From: Mucilaginibacter sp. SMC90 | Lineage (GTDB): Bacteria; Bacteroidota; Bacteroidia; Sphingobacteriales; Sphingobacteriaceae | Direction: 5' to 3' | DNA length: 64,000 nt | Assembly (NCBI RefSeq): GCF_022811725.1 | Contig: NZ_CP094527.1 | Location: 372,001 to 436,000 of the forward strand | In this document: piece by piece, positions 49,701-59,539 of the stretch | Layout: every line of letters starts with the position of its first letter | How positions within the stretch are numbered: the first letter of the stretch is position 1 | The notes under the pieces: generated by a model | The model's input: only the letters and a program-made list of their open reading frames with translations | Told to the model about the DNA's origin: nothing | Database searches by the model: none | Made by a program: the position numbers and the translations under genes

Positions 49701-50462
49701 TTAAAGTGTGTTTTGCAGATAGCTTTTTTCGGGCTCTGCCGGCCTTCTTTTTCTCATCGACTCTCCTTTCAGTTCCATCCGGTGCGCATCATGCACGATA
49801 CGGTCAAGGATAGCATCAGCGATCGTCTTTTCACCAATGACCTCATACCATTTACTGACCGGCAGCTGAGAGGTGATGATCAGCGATGTCTTACCGTGCC
49901 TGTCCTCAATGATCTCCATCAGTGCAGCCCTGCTCTGCGCATCAAAAGGCTGTATACCGAAGTCATCCAGGATCAGTAGTTGCTGGCGTTCCAGTTTGGC
50001 GACATCCTTCATGTAGGAACCATCTGCCTTGGCCATCTTCAGCTTAGCGAAGAGCTTGGGTGTACTGGCATAGAACACGCGGTAACCCAGTATGCAGGCC
50101 TGGTGTCCGATAGCAGAAGCAATGTAGCTTTTGCCGATACCGGTGCTGCCTGTGATCAGCAGGTTCTCATTACGGTCAATAAAGTGACAGTCTGCCAAAC
50201 GCATCACCTGGTTGCGGTCGATGCTGCGATCTGCATGATAATGAATGTTCTCTACCGATGCTTTATAGCGGAACTTGGCGTACATGATGGTACGCTCTAT
50301 GCGCCTGTTCTGCCGGTCGTCCCATTCGGCCTCTACCAGGTGAGCCAGCAGTTCATCAGTAGTGTATTCAGCGGTCTGGCCCGTTTCCAGGCAGCTTTTA
50401 AAGGCATGGTACATGCCAAAGAACTTCAGCTTGCGAAGTTTGTCCAAGGTGTTCGTGTTCAT
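49701..50462 (-). CDS. istB: IS21 helper ATPase IstB
   Basis: 253 residues. DnaC-like AAA+ ATPase: Walker A GSTGIGKSYIASAIG, Walker B LLILDDFG, C-terminal AILDRIVHDAHRMELKGESMRK typical of IstB. Helps IstA choose targets. Starts 20 bp after istA. Confidence 0.95.
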   Translation of the reverse strand: MNTNTLDKLRKLKFFGMYHAFKSCLETGQTAEYTTDELLAHLVEAEWDDRQNRRIERTIMYAKFRYKASVENIHYHADRSIDRNQVMRLADCHFIDRNENLLITGSTGIGKSYIASAIGHQACILGYRVFYASTPKLFAKLKMAKADGSYMKDVAKLERQQLLILDDFGIQPFDAQSRAALMEIIEDRHGKTSLIITSQLPVSKWYEVIGEKTIADAILDRIVHDAHRMELKGESMRKRRPAEPEKSYLQNTL

Positions 50463-50482
50463 ATCGATCTATTTATTAATGG

Positions 50483-52033
50483 TTATTTATAGTAGTTCTC
50501 TCCACGGATATTGTCATGGCTGGGCATAGGCAGTTCGTCAGCAAATAAGCTATCCTCGTAGCTGTCCATCTTGTTCTCCAGTATCTGCTGTATAGTCTTG
50601 TAGTTATAAACGCCATAACCGAGTGCACGCCTGCAGGCACTGGCCAGCCTTTCGTTACCTGCCTTACGCGCCAGGCTGAGGATACCGATACAGGAGCGGT
50701 AAGCTTGTTCCGGGTGTTGCTTCCGGTCCAGTATCTTCAGGATGTAAAGCCTCACATCCTCATGAATGGATGCCGCCCATTCCAGGAACTTATCGGGTGT
50801 CCATTCGGTCATAAAGCGGTGTGTCGAAGCCAGGTGGTCTTTATCCGTAGTATAGCTGTAAGGGCTTTTGATACGCCTGTGCATGGCAATGCGTTCGTAG
50901 TGGTAATAGACCTCTACGTTGGTGCGGGAATACAGCAGTTTGACCTTCCTGCCGATGAAGCGGTACGGTACGCTGTAGTAGTGTTTGTCGATACCAAGAC
51001 AAACATGCCCGTTCTTCATTACGGTGGCCTGGTGCTGCCGTTTGAACTCATAACGTAATGCCGGTAATGGCGAGAGAGCCTGGCGTTCTATCTCCTCGAA
51101 CTGGAGCTTTCTGCTGTAATTGCGGCCTTTCAGCGGCTGGCTGTTATGTGCTTCTAAAGCGACCTTGACCGCTGTGTTCAGTTCTGCAAGGGTATGATAG
51201 GCCTCTTTGCGAATAGGTGCGTAGATACGGCTGTAAACGATCTTAACAGCTCCTTCTACCAGTGCTTTGTCGCGAGGGCGGTACGCCCTCGCTGGTAAGA
51301 TGGTCGTTCCGTAATGGTCGGCAAAGTCGGCAAAGGTCTCGTTCAGTGTTGGCTCATAGCGGTTGCTTTTGGTAACGGCAGCCTTCAGGTTGTCGGGAAC
51401 GATGGCGGCAGGTACGCCGCCATAAAAGTGCAGGGCATTCTCGCAGGCTGCTATAAAGTCTTCTTTCTGCTGGCTCAGCACAGCTTCAACATAGGTCAAT
51501 TGACTGGCGCCAAGGATAGCAACGAACACCTCGGCCTCAATGACCTCACCGGTATCCTTGTCCGTTATGCTTAGCTTTTCACCGGCAAAGTCCACATACA
51601 GCTTATCACCGGCTTTATGATCCAGGTGCATTGTGGGGTTCACGCGGGCTTTCCACTGGTTGTAATAAAAGCAGAATTGGGTGTATTTGAACCCGTCAGG
51701 GAACTCTTTGATATAAGCTTCCCACAGGATGCGGCGGTTCATACCGACCCGCTTTAGCTCTTTATCTATTTGCGGGAAACATCGTTGCAGGGCTACCATC
51801 CGCTTGTCCGGAGGGCGTTCACTGCTTTTGCCAAAGAAGTCCTCCAGCTCTTTATCATTAAGGGTATTGATCTCTTCGAACGTAAAGCCGCTGGCATCGA
51901 ACGCAATAAGGTACTTCTTTGCGGTATTGCGTGACACGCCGGTCTGGGCCGCTATCGATAGCTTGCTGCGGCCCTGGCTGTACATCCTTAGGATCTGTCT
52001 TATCTTACTCATGCTTATCGTAGTGTTGGCCAT
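50483..52033 (-). CDS. istA: IS21 transposase IstA
   Basis: 516 residues. N-terminal HTH (SKIRQILRMYSQGRSKLSIAAQTGVSRNTAKKYL), DDE integrase core beginning LYVDFAGEKLSI, with VPDNLKAAVTKSNRYEPTLNETFADFADHYGTTILPARAYRPRDKALVEGAVKIV holding the second Asp and the Glu. Full length. Confidence 0.95.
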   Translation of the reverse strand: MANTTISMSKIRQILRMYSQGRSKLSIAAQTGVSRNTAKKYLIAFDASGFTFEEINTLNDKELEDFFGKSSERPPDKRMVALQRCFPQIDKELKRVGMNRRILWEAYIKEFPDGFKYTQFCFYYNQWKARVNPTMHLDHKAGDKLYVDFAGEKLSITDKDTGEVIEAEVFVAILGASQLTYVEAVLSQQKEDFIAACENALHFYGGVPAAIVPDNLKAAVTKSNRYEPTLNETFADFADHYGTTILPARAYRPRDKALVEGAVKIVYSRIYAPIRKEAYHTLAELNTAVKVALEAHNSQPLKGRNYSRKLQFEEIERQALSPLPALRYEFKRQHQATVMKNGHVCLGIDKHYYSVPYRFIGRKVKLLYSRTNVEVYYHYERIAMHRRIKSPYSYTTDKDHLASTHRFMTEWTPDKFLEWAASIHEDVRLYILKILDRKQHPEQAYRSCIGILSLARKAGNERLASACRRALGYGVYNYKTIQQILENKMDSYEDSLFADELPMPSHDNIRGENYYK

Positions 52034-52172: not shown

Positions 52173-52405
52173 ATATCAGCGAATTCTCCAGATTAAACCT
52201 CATTCCTCCCACAAATCGTTGATTAATAGCTGATTAAATAGCTTCAAGGGTACCTAATTTCCAAAAAACAAATGGTACCCTCAACGGTACCCTTTTTGGC
52301 CTGGAAAACTTGATTGGATCTGATATGCTTTTTTGCAGAAAGCCGCCTAAAAAAGCCGTAAACGCAAAAAAGCCCTACTTTTCAGTAAGGCTTTTTGCTA
52401 TTTAG
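52173..52405. other. Gap between the IS and tRNA-Asp with GGTACC repeats and terminator
   Basis: Contains three GGTACC hexamers (about 52249-52307) in an imperfect inverted arrangement, then the tRNA terminator hairpin at 52370-52398 (arms AAGCC..TACT / AGTA..GGCTT with T run, minus strand). Similar GGTTACC/GGCACC sequence occurs beside the left repeat near 5320, perhaps recombination-site arms. Confidence 0.4.
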
Positions 52406-52479
52406 CGGAATGGACGGGACTCGAACCCGCGACCCCATGCGTGACAGGCATGTATTCTAACCAGCTGAACTACCACTCC
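52406..52479 (-). tRNA. tRNA-Asp (GTC)
   Basis: 74 nt. Acceptor stem GGAGTGG / CCATTCC, D arm AGTTCAGCTGGTTAGAAT, anticodon loop CTGTCAC with GTC, T arm CGGGTTCGAGTCCCG. No encoded CCA. Followed on the minus strand by its terminator. Confidence 0.95.
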
Positions 52480-52533: not shown

Positions 52534-52599
52534 AAAAAAAGCTTTAAACGCAAAAAAGCCTCAACTTTTTCAAGTTAAGGCTTTTAGCGGAATGGACGG
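52534..52599 (-). repeat. Right copy of tRNA-Asp 3'-end/terminator block
   Basis: One mismatch from 5185-5250. It lies on the 5' side of the intact tRNA-Asp. Carries the same core TTTAGCGGAATGGACGG but no tRNA body, so it is the relic of another tRNA-Asp copy or of a second integration. Confidence 0.65.
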
Positions 52600-53042
52600 C
52601 TCCGTAACCCTGTCCATTTATATGCTGTTATTCAGTATTTTACCAATCTTCAACTACTGTGCTCCCGAATTTTTTCTGAGCAAGGACAATAGCATTCAAT
52701 ATCAAATGATACTGACAAAAATAAGAAAAACTGACAAATAGCAGCCAATTGTAATCATGATTAAAACATAGAGAGACATTATGAGTTGGTGTAATAGGCG
52801 GCCACGCTATTGAACTCACCATACCTTATTCATCACTTAAGCAACCAAAAGCGCTAGCCGGGTAAACTGTCAGGGCCGGGGCGCAACCGCTGAAAGCGGA
52901 CAACCCGCGCCACGCTTGTATAGCCTTGACTTTTTATCCCTGCGGTGGGCTATCTTTGCGTTATTGTTGAATAAGATAAATTGAATTTTATCGGAATTAT
53001 TTATGTTTAGAATAGACCATAGGATATTCACCTGGCAATATT
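52600..53042. other. Gap holding the first copy of a structured repeat
   Basis: No convincing gene. It includes the 164-bp repeat at 52797-52960. The few open frames here show no coding character. Confidence 0.4.
52797..52960 (+). repeat. Structured promoter-bearing repeat, copy 1
   Basis: About 164 bp, repeated at 56161-56325. Nested palindromes: GTCAGGGC..GCCTTGAC, GGCGC..GCGCC, and an inner CCGCTGAAAGCGG hairpin. It ends with CTTGAC, 20 bp, and a perfect -7 box TATCTTTG, i.e. a rightward Bacteroidota promoter. Confidence 0.6.
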
Positions 53043-54443: not shown

Positions 54444-55991
54444 TTATCGCTTAAATCCCCTGTGTCTTTCCTTATCTTCATCCTTTGATACTTCGTTATT
54501 GTACATAACTGGTTGAAATGTTAGTTTTCCTTCTTCCGGCTCTGAAAAAGCATTGGCATTTTGTAACTGATATTGCATTTCATCCATGTTTGCACCAGTA
54601 ATTGTCGCACTGAATTGCTGGGCGCGGGATAACATACGAATATAGGCGGATGGTATTTGCTGGCGTGTTAATTTACGTAGCGCTCCCATATAATCTTCCC
54701 TGTAAACAGTTGGTATAATGATCCTGGTTTGTCCCGCCTTTACCAATTCTGCATTCATCATCACCCGAGCCAGTCGGCCGTTGCCGTCCAGAAATGGATG
54801 GACTTCACTGATCATAAACATCATGAAGGCTGCTTTTGCAAAAGGATCGTTCAAATTCCTATAAAAGTCAAAACCTTTTGTCAACGTTCCTTTTACTAAG
54901 CTTTGGTCAACGAAAAAAGTATCGCCTGCTCGGTTATTCTTATCTTTAAATTCTCCCGGCTTCTTTGATAAACGGGCACTAAGTAAAATCTTATGGCGAT
55001 ACTGCAGAACATGCAGCAACTGTTCTGCAGTTTGCGGGATAATTGACATTTCTTGATAGTTGCTCAACAACTTATAGGTACCCAAAATATCATGCGAATC
55101 CTCGTCGCGGGCTGGCAGTGGTGTTTCTGTCTGAATGATTTTCTTCGCTTCGCCAATTTCAAATTCTGTCCCTTCTATGTAGTTTGAAAAGTAAGCCTCG
55201 AAAAATGCAAAATTCCGAAAGGTATAACTTGATGAATTTTCCTCAGGTAAAGATGGAAATTCATCCTGCTGTAACTCTACAAAAAGTTTTTCAAAAAGTG
55301 ATACTCTATTCGGGTCATAAGGATGCCCGAATGTGCGGGCAATAGCTATGGGCGATGATAAAATGTTGGCATGGCCAGTTGCCAGTAAAGCGCTGATCAG
55401 CTTATTCATTTTATTAAACTCCTTTACCATCCCTATTCTGCCCGAAATCTCCCTTGCTTTGTCTCTTAGTTCATTCAACCCAGCCTCACCTTTTACCCTT
55501 GCTATCTTTTCCAATCGTTCTTCCAGTTCAGGTATGGTTAAAGTTTTTGATTCAGGTCCGGGTTTTCGGGAATCCTGAAAATTTTCGAGAAACGCCCGTG
55601 CCTGTTGCGAAACATATAAACCTAGAGTGAGCGGGTTGTCGCCATCAATATAATGAGGCCCGTCCATAATATTTAAGGTTACTCCTGGAACTTTTGACTT
55701 TCGCTTATAGCTGTAAGTCAAAAAAATATCACCGGTATTGGTTGGTTTAAACTCCAGTGCCGAACGGTGACTTAGTATTATTCCCGGATATAAATGGCCG
55801 ATAATGGAAAACAGGTTTCTTTTGACAATTTCTTCCGGAGAGTCAGTAAAATTCGGTGTATAAACGCGGGGGAGCAACTTACGAAGTTTCTTTTCTTTTA
55901 CCAATTGGCCGATCTGCCTGCTTAGGCCCGGTTCACTGCTTGAAAAAATAATTTCCTGTAAATGCAATGGCAAACTCTTATCCATAATCAA
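54444..55991 (-). CDS. Fic-domain protein with AbiEi-like N-terminal domain
   Basis: 515 residues. The first 130 resemble AbiEi-type antitoxin/winged-helix proteins (LSRQIGQLVKEKKLRKLLPRVYTPNF.. HLYPGIILSHRSALEFKPT). The Fic core follows, with active motif HPFLDGNGRLAR (398-409). An inhibitory-helix motif SNYIEG (269-274) matches (S/T)xxxE(G/N), so the enzyme is probably self-inhibited by Glu273. AMP or another nucleotide moiety would be transferred to a target protein. Three direct repeats lie just upstream. Starts at Met 1 or Met 3. Confidence 0.85.
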   Translation of the reverse strand: MIMDKSLPLHLQEIIFSSSEPGLSRQIGQLVKEKKLRKLLPRVYTPNFTDSPEEIVKRNLFSIIGHLYPGIILSHRSALEFKPTNTGDIFLTYSYKRKSKVPGVTLNIMDGPHYIDGDNPLTLGLYVSQQARAFLENFQDSRKPGPESKTLTIPELEERLEKIARVKGEAGLNELRDKAREISGRIGMVKEFNKMNKLISALLATGHANILSSPIAIARTFGHPYDPNRVSLFEKLFVELQQDEFPSLPEENSSSYTFRNFAFFEAYFSNYIEGTEFEIGEAKKIIQTETPLPARDEDSHDILGTYKLLSNYQEMSIIPQTAEQLLHVLQYRHKILLSARLSKKPGEFKDKNNRAGDTFFVDQSLVKGTLTKGFDFYRNLNDPFAKAAFMMFMISEVHPFLDGNGRLARVMMNAELVKAGQTRIIIPTVYREDYMGALRKLTRQQIPSAYIRMLSRAQQFSATITGANMDEMQYQLQNANAFSEPEEGKLTFQPVMYNNEVSKDEDKERHRGFKR

Positions 55992-55997
55992 AATGCT

Positions 55998-56088
55998 GCA
56001 AAAATTTCACCCTAAACTAATGAAACAACCCCTAAAAAGCAAAAATTTCACCCTAAATGGCGTTTTTTGACAAAAATCTCACCCTAAA
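55998..56088. repeat. Three direct repeats (iterons) upstream of the Fic gene
   Basis: GCAAAAATTTCACCCTAAA at 55998-56016 and 56039-56057, and ACAAAAATCTCACCCTAAA at 56070-56088. Spacing is 41 and 31 bp, close to four and three helical turns, so a protein could bind all three on one face. They lie within 100 bp of the Fic start, where the winged-helix part of the Fic protein may act as autoregulator. Confidence 0.65.
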
Positions 56089-56160: not shown

Positions 56161-56325
56161 TGGCCGCCATGCAATTGAACTCACCATTCCTTATTCATCG
56201 CTTAAGCAACCAACCGCGCGAGCCGGTTAAAATGTCAAGGCCGTGGCGCATCCGCTGAAAGCGGACAACCCGAGCCACGCTTGTATAGCCTTGACTTTTT
56301 ATCCCGGCGGCGGGATATCTTTGCG
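56161..56325 (+). repeat. Structured promoter-bearing repeat, copy 2
   Basis: Counterpart of 52797-52960. Here GTCAAGGC/GCCTTGAC and GTGGC/GCCAC pair perfectly around CCGCTGAAAGCGG, and the -7 box is again TATCTTTG (56316-56323), pointing to the fluoride operon. Confidence 0.6.
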
Positions 56326-56427: not shown

Positions 56428-56436
56428 TTCATCTTA

Positions 56437-56493
56437 AAACGGAAATGATGTCTTCCGTTTAAAATAACCGCCTCGTGCTGATGACGTCTACAA
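56437..56493 (+). promoter_or_regulatory. Fluoride riboswitch (crcB motif)
   Basis: Stem AAACGGAA/TTCCGTTT (56437-56444 with 56453-56460) closes a loop whose GATGTC (56447-56452) pairs with GACGTC (56483-56488) to form the pseudoknot. Conserved AACCG (56466-56470), GCTGATG (56477-56483) and the 3' CTAC (56488-56491) all match the motif. It stands directly before an enolase/CLC operon, the expected target genes. A hairpin CAAGACC/GGTTTTG at about 56502-56520 may be the expression platform. Confidence 0.88.
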
Positions 56494-56539
56494 ATATTGC
56501 ACAAGACCATGCAGGTTTTGCGCGTAAAATTATTTGTAG

Positions 56540-56860
56540 GTGAAAAGATCAGCGTCTCTCTTTTACATTATTAAGCAAAATTCTGCCGGTTTAGGTTGCT
56601 ACCTGGTGCCATTATTCCTTTTTGGGCTAAGCCTTGGTAAAGCGGAGAGCTTCATCCTCATCAATTCTTTTTCAGGTGGCGGACACAATAAATTACTTCA
56701 GCTCTTAACAGAAATCAGCGGGGGCATGATACTGTCAGCTATTTTCGTACTGATCTTTGCGCGTACCCGGCCCGTGGGGACCATTTTGGCTGTTGCGATC
56801 CTTTTTATTGCCTGGTGTGTCTGTATCACATTGATAAATCTTAAATATCTTAATATATGA
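56540..56860 (+). CDS. Small membrane protein of the fluoride operon
   Basis: 106 residues, GTG start at 56540, about three hydrophobic helices (GLGCYLVPLFLFGLSLG; ISGGMILSAIFVLIFA; TILAVAILFIAWCVCITLI). Not a recognisable CrcB/Fluc. It overlaps the enolase start by 4 bp. Function unknown, but the riboswitch implies a role in fluoride stress. Confidence 0.65.
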   Translation: MKRSASLFYIIKQNSAGLGCYLVPLFLFGLSLGKAESFILINSFSGGGHNKLLQLLTEISGGMILSAIFVLIFARTRPVGTILAVAILFIAWCVCITLINLKYLNI

Positions 56861-58134
56861 AAATCAAACAATTTAAAGCGAGAGAAATCTTGGATTCGCG
56901 TGGCAACCCTACAGTGGAGGCTGAGATTGAACTCGAAAACGGGGCAAAAGCAAGGGGAATATCACCATCAGGCGCCAGTACCGGAGAAAAGGAAGCGGTT
57001 GAACTGCGTGATGGCGACGCTAAACGCTATAACGGGAAAGGTGTCGAAAAGGCCGTCGCTCAAATGAATGGCGAGGTTGCAGAAGTTATGTCGGCCACGG
57101 AGTTTGTTGACCAGAAAACATTTGACGAGTTGCTTATTAAGTTGGATGGTACTGAAAATAAATCACGATTAGGAGCCAATGCAATTTTGGCCGCCTCTAT
57201 TGCTTTTGCGCGTGTACAGTCTGTTTCAAAAAACATCCCTCTATATCGTCAGCTGATCGAAAGAGATATTTATACAATGCCTGTTCCGTGCATGAATGTT
57301 ATCAACGGCGGCAGACATGCTGATAATAATATCGATTTCCAGGAATTCATGATCGCTCCGCACAATGCGCCGTCCTTTAAGGAAAGCATCCGTATGGGGG
57401 AAGAAGTATTTCATAGCTTGCGCAGCCTCCTTAAAAGCAAAGGTTACTATACCGGTGTAGGTGATGAAGGCGGTTTCGCCCCAAATTTAAAATCTAACGA
57501 AGAAGCAATGGAGGTGATACTGGAAGCTATTCAGAAAGCGGGGTACAAACCGGGCGCGGATATCTCAATTTGCCTTGACCCCGCCACCAGCGAGATGTGG
57601 CAAAACGGTAAATACCTGTTTTATAAAAGCGATCAGCGTCAGATCACTACCGAAGAATTGGTTATGTTGTGGGATAGGTGGATCAAGCAGTATCCAATTG
57701 TATTATTAGAAGATGGACTGGGCGAGAATGACTGGAAGGGCTGGAAACAAATGACAGCTGCTTTAGGTAATATAGTTGAACTGGTGGGTGACGATATCTT
57801 CTGCACTAATCCTGCCATCATCACCGAAGGGATCAAGGAGGGTATTGGTAACAGTGTGTTGATCAAATTAAATCAGATCGGCACCATTACGGAAACGCTG
57901 GAAGCTGTGAAACTGGCACAGGCAAATAATTATAACTGCTTCATCTCTCACAGGAGCGGTGAAACCGAAGATACAACCATCGCAGATCTCGTAGTAGCTA
58001 CTAACGCGGGGCACATCAAAACCGGTAGCGGGTGCCGTTCCGAGCGGATCGCTAAATTCAATCAGTTACTACGTATAGAAGAAGAATTAGGCGCTAAAGC
58101 GTCGTTCGCTGGAATAGAAACTTTTAAAATATGA
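56857..58134 (+). CDS. eno: Enolase (fluoride-operon copy)
   Basis: 425 residues, 2-phosphoglycerate dehydratase. All expected motifs: REILDSRGNPTVE, SPSGASTGEKEA, NGGRHADNNIDFQEFM, GDEGGFAPNL, metal ligands in ICLDPATSE, LLEDGL and VGDDIF, catalytic Lys in VLIKLNQIGT, SHRSGETEDTTIADL. Enolase is a classical target of fluoride inhibition; this copy lies behind a fluoride riboswitch and is probably an extra, inducible copy. Confidence 0.95.
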   Translation: MKIKQFKAREILDSRGNPTVEAEIELENGAKARGISPSGASTGEKEAVELRDGDAKRYNGKGVEKAVAQMNGEVAEVMSATEFVDQKTFDELLIKLDGTENKSRLGANAILAASIAFARVQSVSKNIPLYRQLIERDIYTMPVPCMNVINGGRHADNNIDFQEFMIAPHNAPSFKESIRMGEEVFHSLRSLLKSKGYYTGVGDEGGFAPNLKSNEEAMEVILEAIQKAGYKPGADISICLDPATSEMWQNGKYLFYKSDQRQITTEELVMLWDRWIKQYPIVLLEDGLGENDWKGWKQMTAALGNIVELVGDDIFCTNPAIITEGIKEGIGNSVLIKLNQIGTITETLEAVKLAQANNYNCFISHRSGETEDTTIADLVVATNAGHIKTGSGCRSERIAKFNQLLRIEEELGAKASFAGIETFKI

Positions 58135-58141
58135 TCGGAAA

Positions 58142-59539
58142 ATGGACGACAATACGATAAACCTGAAAGAACATTACGCCATCCTAAAACAGCTCTTTAA
58201 ATGGACGGTGCTGGTAATCCCTATAGCGCTGATGGTCGGCAGTATGATCGCTTTCTTTTTATGGCTTTTGGGCGCCGCCATTCATTTTCGCTTCGCGCAT
58301 TTTTGGCTGCTCTTCCTGTTGCCATTAGCCGGGATACTTATTCATTTCATATATCAATCGGTAGGTAAATCCTCTGAAAAAGGAAATAATCTGATCATGG
58401 AACAGATCCATGAAGCGGGTGGAGGTGTACCTAAACGCATGGCCCCTATTATTCTGATCACCACAGTTATCACTCATTTATTTGGTGGCTCAGCCGGACG
58501 TGAGGGTACTGCGGTGCAGATAGGCGGCAGTATCGCTTCTATGTTTGGTAGCTGGTTCAAATTGAAAGGCCCCGATATGCGTATGATATTAACCGCCGGT
58601 ATGGCAGCAGGTTTCGGCGCTGTCTTTGGCACCCCTGTTACTGGTGCTATATTCGCGATGGAAGTGCTCACTATCGGTAAGATACAATATGACGCATTAA
58701 TTCCTGCCTTGATCGCTGCTGTTGTCGGCGATATGACCGTATCCGCCTGGCATGTTACCCATGTGCATTACCACATCGACACCCTACCGGCCTATGCGCC
58801 GCTTATAGTGTCCGATCTGTTTCATTTTGATCTGTTGTTGTTATTAAAGGTTATCCTGGCATCCGCGGCATTTGGACTGGCAAGTTATCTTTTTGCCGGC
58901 ATGGTGCATGAGATCAAGACTATCTGCGTTAAACTTTTTAAGCATAAATGGATGATCCCGGTATTTGGCGGCCTGCTTATCATCGGCCTTTATTTTATTA
59001 ACGGCAAGCCTGATTATTTAGGTTTAGGTATTGATGCGGAGCATCCTGGGGCAGTAACTATCCCCTCAGCTTTCCACAACGGCGGCTCGGATACCTGGAG
59101 CTGGCTCTGGAAAACCATCTACACCACCGTAACTTTAGGCACCGGGTTTAAGGGAGGTGAAGTTACCCCGCTATTTTATATTGGGGCAACATTAGGAAAT
59201 ACATTATCGATAGTGTTAAATGCCCCTGTAAGCCTTTTTGCCGCATTGGGATTTATCGCAGTGTTTGCCGGTGCTACAAATACACCACTTGCCTGTACTT
59301 TTATGGGTATCGAGCTTTTTGGTGGTGAACATGCGCTACTATTTGCCGTAGCTTGTTTTACCGCATATATCTTTAGTGGGCATTCAGGCATCTACAGTGC
59401 GCAGCGCATTGCTGTTCCTAAAATATCCGATGATCACTATGCCCATGAGGCTACGCTTTCAGAAGCTATGACGCGAAGAGGCTATTTACACCGGAAATTA
59501 AGCAAATACCGGATCTCTTTTAAAAAAGAAAAATCATGA
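58142..59539 (+). CDS. CLC-type fluoride/proton antiporter (EriC-F like)
   Basis: 465-residue CLC membrane protein. The filter motifs are not those of chloride CLCs: GGGVP instead of GSGIP, and GREGT instead of GREGP, the latter typical of the fluoride-specific branch; TLGTGFKGGEVTPLFYIGA is present. Position behind a fluoride riboswitch with enolase supports F- export. No CBS domains. Confidence 0.88.
   Translation: MDDNTINLKEHYAILKQLFKWTVLVIPIALMVGSMIAFFLWLLGAAIHFRFAHFWLLFLLPLAGILIHFIYQSVGKSSEKGNNLIMEQIHEAGGGVPKRMAPIILITTVITHLFGGSAGREGTAVQIGGSIASMFGSWFKLKGPDMRMILTAGMAAGFGAVFGTPVTGAIFAMEVLTIGKIQYDALIPALIAAVVGDMTVSAWHVTHVHYHIDTLPAYAPLIVSDLFHFDLLLLLKVILASAAFGLASYLFAGMVHEIKTICVKLFKHKWMIPVFGGLLIIGLYFINGKPDYLGLGIDAEHPGAVTIPSAFHNGGSDTWSWLWKTIYTTVTLGTGFKGGEVTPLFYIGATLGNTLSIVLNAPVSLFAALGFIAVFAGATNTPLACTFMGIELFGGEHALLFAVACFTAYIFSGHSGIYSAQRIAVPKISDDHYAHEATLSEAMTRRGYLHRKLSKYRISFKKEKS

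Follow-up and report, generated by a model that had tools for sequence, protein, structure and literature searches.

A single gene in the window (the whole 64-kb stretch of DNA that was analysed) encodes an AbiEi-like/Fic protein and stands directly behind an array of direct repeats. We propose that this gene is a self-contained toxin, inhibitor and autorepressor: its AbiEi-like half would bind the array, which lies over the promoter of the gene itself. The probability of this reading is, in our estimate, about 0.74. The Fic active site and the inhibitory helix are conserved, and the array accompanies the gene in most of the relatives examined, with its geometry kept and with its proximal end near a promoter box.

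The open frame covers 54444-55991 (-) and begins with TTG at 55991. This TTG start adds two residues to the 513 aa counted from the ATG at 55985, which is the likely start; relatives of the protein align from the Met at this ATG. With this start, the residue called Glu273 in the initial annotation is Glu271. The features of the gene are listed below.

54444..55985 (-), AbiEi-like/Fic gene, 513 aa from ATG, stop codon included in the coordinates
55842..55985 (-), winged-helix region, residues 1-48; predicted model with helix 19-30 and strands 35-38 and 41-43; AbiEi profile matches in relatives, and fold
55371..55838 (-), second AbiEi-like domain, residues 50-205; alignment of AbiEi 6y8q with residues 3-198 of the model, Z 10.5
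54558..55268 (-), Fic (AMP-transferase-type) domain, residues 240-476; Pfam Fic E 2.8e-13, structure matches
55170..55187 (-), class II inhibitory helix motif SNYIEG, residues 267-272 (Glu271), conserved in 26/26
54765..54800 (-), Fic active-site motif HPFLDGNGRLAR, residues 396-407, conserved in 26/26

In the window protein, Fic was the only Pfam family above the cut-off. Pfam and NCBIfam together gave Fic-type families only, plus one match to DUF7696 (0.097) that was taken as chance, and PADLOC on the whole protein gave Fic-type models only, with no AbiEi match. The Fic half (residues ~223-491) matched the structures of FICD, BT_2513 and SoFic with Z values of ~19-22. We aligned 26 orthologs over the whole length, 25 of which are 55-64% identical to the window protein. 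S267, N268, I270, E271 and G272 of the SNxIEG helix were invariant in all 26, as were H396, P397, F398, D400, G401, N402, G403, R404 and R407 of HPFxDGNGRxxR. The class II pattern, HxFx(D/E)GNGRxxR with an (S/T)xxxE(G/N) inhibitory helix N-terminal to it, is therefore present throughout the 26 orthologs. The initial annotation had placed a Fic active site and an inhibitory SNYIEG helix in one chain, and this invariance bears it out.

It had also described the N-terminal half as a winged-helix, antitoxin-like domain. We predicted the structure of the N-terminal 205 residues from 63 sequences (mean pLDDT 92). Foldseek alone yielded no significant match for this model, AbiEi 6y8q being at rank 2 (E 0.16). 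A Z comparison over 268 chains, made as a second look, gave the AbiEi antitoxin 6y8q as the best solved match (Z 10.5, rmsd 4.2, 169 aligned, residues 3-198), 3.9 Z units above the second-ranked row (Z 6.6). Rv2827c (1zel), another AbiEi relative, ranked third (Z 6.4). Ranks 2, 4 and 5 were nucleotidyltransferase-type proteins, which is consistent with the likeness of AbiEi itself to such enzymes, as described in the extracts of PMC7319586. Regarding profiles, with a cut-off of E 10, the PADLOC AbiEi model PDLC02269 matched 61 of the 63 N-domains, the best of them at 1.4e-7; the match of the window N-domain (the N-terminal 205 residues) to the AbiEi profile was weak (E 0.036). The N-domain profile compared with five standalone AbiEi-like proteins resulted in E 2e-5 and a probability of 77%. 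Pfam AbiEi_4 matched one of the 63 N-domains (E 0.086), and the other Pfam matches were scattered and weak, the commonest being DUF7343 (14/63, best 0.00059) and the DUF7696 model (10/63). Comparison of the N-domain profile with solved structures by sequence gave ten weak matches (best E 0.0093), nine of them Hsp70, which were taken as chance. On the strength of the fold match and the PADLOC profile matches, both AbiEi-type domains, the winged helix and the second domain, seem to be present and fused to Fic. The description of this half has thus held up, at the level of a predicted fold and of profile matches in relatives.

In the surroundings, no neighbour gene family occurred in 5 or more of 48 loci (3 kb on each side), so the AbiEi-like/Fic gene seems to stand alone. 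In the same count, no recurrent family came up that would be a separate AbiEii (DUF1814 nucleotidyltransferase) gene of the type IV AbiE kind. The next gene downstream in the window is oxidoreductase-like by eye. At two loci, a DUF6088-annotated gene was seen within ~1 kb of the Fic gene (L277, Bacteroides plasmid; L278, Hymenobacter plasmid).

The gene is carried by what looks, from its sequence, like a ~50-kb integrated element at tRNA-Asp, reaching from 52580 to ~102950. The DNA from 52580 to the window end is 100% identical in genome G276, where identity continues at 98-100%, with 93% in the last 948 bp, to ~102,950 (window numbering; L247-L249 lie beyond the window). In G255, the identity is 99.99-100% as far as the contig reaches, starting at 52914, where that contig begins. 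The tRNA-Asp at 52405-52479 recurs at 102,928 (window numbering) in G276, and a short copy of its end marks the probable left end of the element.

52587..52599 (+), GCGGAATGGACGG, 13-base copy of the 3' end of tRNA-Asp; the integrated element probably begins here on its left side

This copy at 52587 would be the attachment site. Recombinase-like and relaxase-like frames were recognized by eye near the right end. With the ends mapped in this manner, the AbiEi-like/Fic gene lies ~2 kb inside one end. Relatives were also found on plasmids, in 74 records of which 19 cover at least 80% of the query, and at 21 IMG/VR loci; a phage collection gave one partial match only.

Several further observations concern this region and its relatives. 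Broken or truncated AbiEi-Fic copies occur in several genomes (L072, L073, L074, L076, L077). A 164-bp direct repeat (90% identical; 52797-52960 and 56162-56325) flanks the Fic and oxidoreductase-like genes, and a third, weaker copy (80%) is found elsewhere in the genome. A fluoride riboswitch (RF01734, 45.5 bits) at 56432-56497 (+) precedes genes for a small membrane protein, an enolase and a ClC-type channel, assigned by eye, at 56540-59539 (+); by its look, 56432-59539 is a fluoride-resistance operon, divergent from the Fic gene. An IS21-type transposase-like pair (istA/istB, by eye) at 49701-52033 (-) lies just outside the integrated element.

The Fic class and its motifs suggest toxicity, with a cell target and a trigger for its release. 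As a rule, class II Fic proteins are kept in an inactive state, and some of them act in regulation. The Fic domain may accordingly serve another role, such as the regulatory modification of cell proteins, in a regulator without toxin function whose array is plain autoregulation. No partner gene was seen in the 48 loci, as such a regulator would have it. Carriage on the integrated element, on plasmids and on viral contigs, together with the broken copies, fits a toxin or defence module instead, and the catalytic motif is kept in all 26 orthologs. We consider the non-toxic role possible, with the odds against it.

Three 18-bp direct repeats TTTAGGGTGARATTTTTG, all on the same strand, stand directly upstream of the AbiEi-like/Fic gene. 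CAAAAATTTCACCCTAAA occupies 55999-56016 and 56040-56057, and CAAAAATCTCACCCTAAA occupies 56071-56088, with 41 and 31 bp from one start to the next. Counted from the ATG along the coding strand, TTTAGGGTGAAATTTTTG begins at -31 and -72 and TTTAGGGTGAGATTTTTG at -103.

55999..56016 (-), repeat 3, promoter-proximal, -31 to -14 from ATG
56040..56057 (-), repeat 2, -72 to -55 from ATG
56071..56088 (-), repeat 1, one base different, -103 to -86 from ATG
55999..56028 (-), candidate promoter TTG, 19 bp, AATTTTTG (one base off TANNTTTG); overlaps repeat 3; weak, single instance

TTG-19-AATTTTTG was the only promoter candidate found for the window gene. Three repeats at 41 and 31 bp immediately upstream had been noted before, and we recovered them at 55999-56088 with a length of 18 bp each. 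With up to three mismatches, the 17-base core occurs at only these three places in the 64-kb window; one of 100 window shuffles reached three matches (largest 5), clustering not being counted in this test. The 16-base core AAAWTYTCACCCTAAA has exactly three exact matches in the 8.13-Mb genome, all in the array. With up to two mismatches, it gave 50 genome matches including the three repeats, compared with 39 for a reversed-pattern control. The ortholog repeat word TTAGCGTGAAAAATTTGTG, also with up to two mismatches, gave five matches in four genomes: three in its own array and two at 44 and 47 bp upstream of a family member in other genome(s). Altogether, the search of five genomes with two repeat words revealed no widespread occurrence of the repeats without a Fic gene. 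Replication iterons were considered for the array and rejected, no replication gene being seen beside the AbiEi-like/Fic gene.

To follow the array in relatives, we used a named-genome scan with at least 590 pattern matches, 568 of which encode a relative by a cut-off of E 1e-3. From these 568, the 80 best were kept; by their titles, all are Bacteroidota except one Balneolales MAG. The kept relatives and the earlier loci comprised 97 distinct full-length genes (105 full-length reads minus 8 duplicates); L073 (truncated), L031, L032 and L061 (identical to the window gene), L157 (without N-terminus) and L072 (broken) had been excluded beforehand. The motif-free test counts direct repeats within 240 bp upstream: for a given distance, it asks for a pair of 18-base segments that agree in 14 or more positions. 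It took 94 of the 97 genes, three short upstreams being dropped, and a learned-motif test took 96.

A repeat at a lag of exactly 31 bp was present in 73/94 upstreams, as compared with 0.6 expected (20 dinucleotide-shuffle rounds, largest 3), and missing at this threshold in 21/94. Lags of 41 and 72 bp were found in 24/94 and 22/94 upstreams, respectively (0.8 expected for each). The coding sequence of the same genes, used as a control, gave 0 at lags 31, 41 and 72. The learned motif placed two sites 30-32 bp apart in 72/96 upstreams and the triad (31 and 41 bp, each within 1) in 32/96, with no site in 13/96; the coding control held one sense and two antisense sites in total. This motif also scored on the opposite strand of these upstreams, 65 times in all, because its core is partly palindromic. 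A first test on 27 loci found no repeat pair in five of them, namely L048, L068, L069, L070 and the truncated L073, and the clade with L048, L068, L069 and L070 displays no clear array. Since the loci are related by descent, the array counts do not represent independent events.

The arrays reach up to six or seven direct repeats in relatives. L045 has six copies with gaps of 32, 41, 23, 32 and 41, L065 has gaps of 32, 41, 22, 32 and 41, and L130 has five copies with gaps of 31, 41, 24 and 31. The repeat consensus is roughly TTAR-NNNN-AAAWWTTTG. An in-phase site pair with at least 3/4 block letters in common was found in 49/97 loci, a count made with no shuffle control and with an ambiguous register in some loci. 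These letters vary by lineage: GGTG in the window, CGTG in L041, CCAG in L045 and L065, and most commonly TGGA (13/49).

More distant relatives, 35-51% identical to the window protein, were collected from plasmids and IMG/VR contigs; the Variovorax, Alteromonas and two Rhizobium proteins are 37-39% identical to the Neorhizobium protein. We tested 21 of 33 such loci. The others were L256 (58% identical), the near-duplicates L260, L264-L268, L270, L271 and L273, the incomplete L276, and L288. L257 has a broken frame. Starts were annotated for six distant loci and estimated for the rest, the estimates used for L277 and L287 being further upstream than the annotation. Of the 21 upstreams, 9 (0.05 expected) had a repeat at a lag of exactly 31 bp, including those of Sphingorhabdus, Neorhizobium, Hymenobacter monticola and IMG/VR contigs. 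A lag of 30-32 bp was found in 13/21, which adds the Bacteroides plasmid, Variovorax and the two near-identical Rhizobium arrays; 8/21, including Novosphingobium and Alteromonas, lacked a repeat at 30-32 bp. The near-duplicates L264, L268, L270, L271 and L273 had 14-15/18 at lag 31. Proteobacteria are among the distant relatives that retain the spacing with a different sequence, and the letters of distant repeats can be unrelated to those of the window, for example TTTGTTGACATTAA and AAAATTAACAAAAGTTTGCA.

Other Fic genes served as a specificity control (30 loci by PF02661 in the same genus and six earlier loci, with the first ATG as start). HxFxxGNGR was present in 22/36 readings; L188 was without a reading, and L057, L059 and L060 belong to the second family described below. 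Only 1/36 of their upstreams had a repeat at lag 31 (L189, 14/18), and 0/36 at lag 41. The initial annotation took the repeats for the gene's own binding sites, and this putative assignment gains support from an array that goes with the family, is present at 1/36 other Fic genes and did not turn up elsewhere in the five genomes searched with the two repeat words. For standalone AbiEi-like genes, nine loci were taken by PF13338, six of them usable; L162 yielded no frame, the frame of L165 looked unrelated, and L158 has 88 aa only. None of the nine had a lag-31 repeat of at least 14 among its four top lags. Two standalone genes have other upstream repeats (L160, 17/18 at 33 bp; L166, 16/18 at 22, 43 and 56 bp), and arrays at AbiEi-type genes may thus be more general.

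A second Fic family, termed type B, comprises proteins of ~520 aa with a different long N-terminal half (L057, L059, L060, L227-L246). Its upstreams bear a tandem array, with an 18-base repeat at 24 bp in 20/23 (0.08 expected) and at 48 bp in 17/23; none of the 23 had a repeat at 31 or 41 bp. The Fic motif is kept in 23/23, reading HPYMDGNGR in L057, L059 and L060, and the inhibitory region SLSIERY keeps its Glu in 23/23. The N-terminal half of type B looks AbiEi-like by eye only: hhalign against the AbiEi half was not significant (E 0.17, 20 columns), and PADLOC on three type B proteins gave no AbiEi match at E up to 0.1. The 24-bp arrays of type B and the 31/41-bp arrays of AbiEi-Fic indicate that private arrays exist in two Fic families, with a fixed period particular to each. 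The initial annotation concerned a single instance, to which the constant 31/41-bp spacing among relatives and the type B family are added here. As an explanation, a promoter feature general to Bacteroidota was rejected, given the 1/36 among other Fic upstreams and the lack of 31- or 41-bp repeats at type B.

To place the array relative to the promoter, we inspected the 52 orthologs whose sites lie at -78 and -47. Conservation extends past the proximal repeat, with A at -25 (90%), T at -22/-21 (94/96%), T at -20 (71%) and G at -19 (75%). TTTG/TANNTTTG is the deduced Bacteroidetes promoter in the extracts of PMC6847099. The 52 orthologs share one array type, and 19 of them carry a perfect TANNTTTG, always at -27 to -25, as compared with a mean of 3.5 and a maximum of 7 in shuffles. 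Among the other 45 loci, ten have a perfect TANNTTTG, nine times at -27 (mean of 3.0 and maximum of 7 in shuffles). The proximal repeat of the orthologs (-46 to -28) sits just upstream of this -7 box, so that a bound protein would obstruct RNA polymerase.

With these results, we propose the following mechanism. The N-terminal half would be an AbiEi-type antitoxin, and the C-terminal half a class II Fic enzyme restrained by its own SNYIEG helix. The AbiEi half would occupy the direct repeats, one protomer per repeat, on nearly one helix face (~3 and 4 turns). The 31 and 41 bp are near whole turns (31.5 and 42 by arithmetic), which suggests contacts between the bound units. As the promoter-proximal repeat overlaps the promoter, binding there would switch the gene off and keep the enzyme dose low. 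Dilution of the protein or release of the inhibitory helix would then let Fic modify a cell target, presumably by AMPylation, leading to growth arrest. Protein and operator would have changed together, which would result in lineages with private arrays.

A further proposal, which we regard as unlikely, gives the DNA itself a role. The constant 31/41-bp spacing with its changing letters would mean that one assembly spans the repeats, and DNA occupancy would hold the AbiEi-Fic oligomer inactive, making the DNA a co-antitoxin. Gene and enzyme would both be released if the array were lost or if the protein modified its own AbiEi half, and the 24-bp array of type B would be a second solution to the same end.

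The joint change of protein and operator was probed by a co-variation test on 74 loci with at least two learned-motif sites (numbered by L035). The partial correlation of the repeat letters with residues 1-48 given Fic was 0.12 (permutation p 0.014), and 0.07 for residues 15-36. It was 0.34 for residues 50-205 given Fic (p 0.001) and 0.27 for Fic given residues 1-48 (p 0.001). In these 74 loci, the repeat letters were not closer to the winged helix than to other protein parts. In this test, the learned motif was biased towards the Flavobacterium type and did not pick up the repeat type of the window, and base-by-residue co-evolution is not claimed. A separate host-cell regulator, rather than the fused protein, could own the repeats: the letters do not single out the winged helix, and the link of array and gene is by association. 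Such a regulator would have further targets, which the confinement of the repeats to the family argues against, the window repeat core having no other exact genome match and TTAGCGTGAAAAATTTGTG being found in four genomes only at family members. In addition, most relatives and some of the more distant ones have the array at the gene, the window copy is carried by a transferred element, and the array is scarce at other Fic genes. We hold a host regulator to be quite improbable.

Alternatively, the repeats could be phased A-tracts, which would bend the DNA and enhance promoter activity without a protein of their own. The AT-rich core and the spacings near whole helical turns agree with this, and AT-rich motifs one and two turns upstream are described for Flavobacterium promoters in the extracts of PMC6847099. 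This reading has very little chance, because the non-A-tract part TTTAGGGTG is copied exactly three times in the window, the block letters shared within 49/97 loci differ by lineage (with the same lack of a shuffle control and some register ambiguity), some of the distant relatives have a ~31-bp spacing between repeats of different sequence, and other Fic genes of the same genus mostly lack an array.

If the proposed self-contained toxin, inhibitor and autorepressor exists, it is a widespread one-gene toxin-antitoxin-like module that joins an AbiEi antitoxin and a Fic toxin, types known from different systems. Its operator geometry would be kept over long distances despite sequence divergence. 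The family would then provide a natural series for the joint change of repressor and operator, and a direct test of whether DNA binding governs Fic toxins.

A search of the open-access literature, with subscription papers and preprints outside its scope, gave no description of an AbiEi-like/Fic fusion or of the repeats among the matches listed. FICD, SoFic and BT_2513 have the Fic fold, the inhibitory helix and the active-site motif in common with the window protein; the match is limited to the Fic half, and the AbiEi-like half is not seen in them. AbiEi antitoxins share the winged helix with a second domain, and several asymmetric ~20-bp sites before their own gene. According to the extracts of PMC7319586, Streptococcus agalactiae AbiEi (6y8q) binds two 23-bp sites before its own gene and Rv2827c (1zel) binds four, with no cross-binding between the two systems. 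These site numbers fit one AbiEi unit per asymmetric repeat. Type IV AbiE has a separate toxin gene and inverted 23-bp repeats, whereas the window gene has a fused Fic domain and direct repeats on one strand. CccR of Yersinia pseudotuberculosis, as portrayed in the extracts of PMC9755527, is a class II Fic toxin that represses its own gene via a DNA-binding domain of the same polypeptide. Common to both, as a prediction in our case, are a class II Fic domain, an inhibitory helix and a DNA-binding domain in one chain, and thereby the combination of toxin and regulator. The DNA-binding domain of CccR is a C-terminal HTH domain, which binds as a dimer to two inverted 10-bp boxes 26 bp apart (PMC9755527, extracts); here, in contrast, the DNA-binding-like AbiEi part is N-terminal, and the repeats are direct, at 31/41 bp. 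By analogy, the AbiEi, Rv2827c and CccR precedents support negative autoregulation by the AbiEi half on the array. CccR is the published relative in kind, and the AbiEi half, the direct-repeat ruler and the conservation of this ruler are the new parts.
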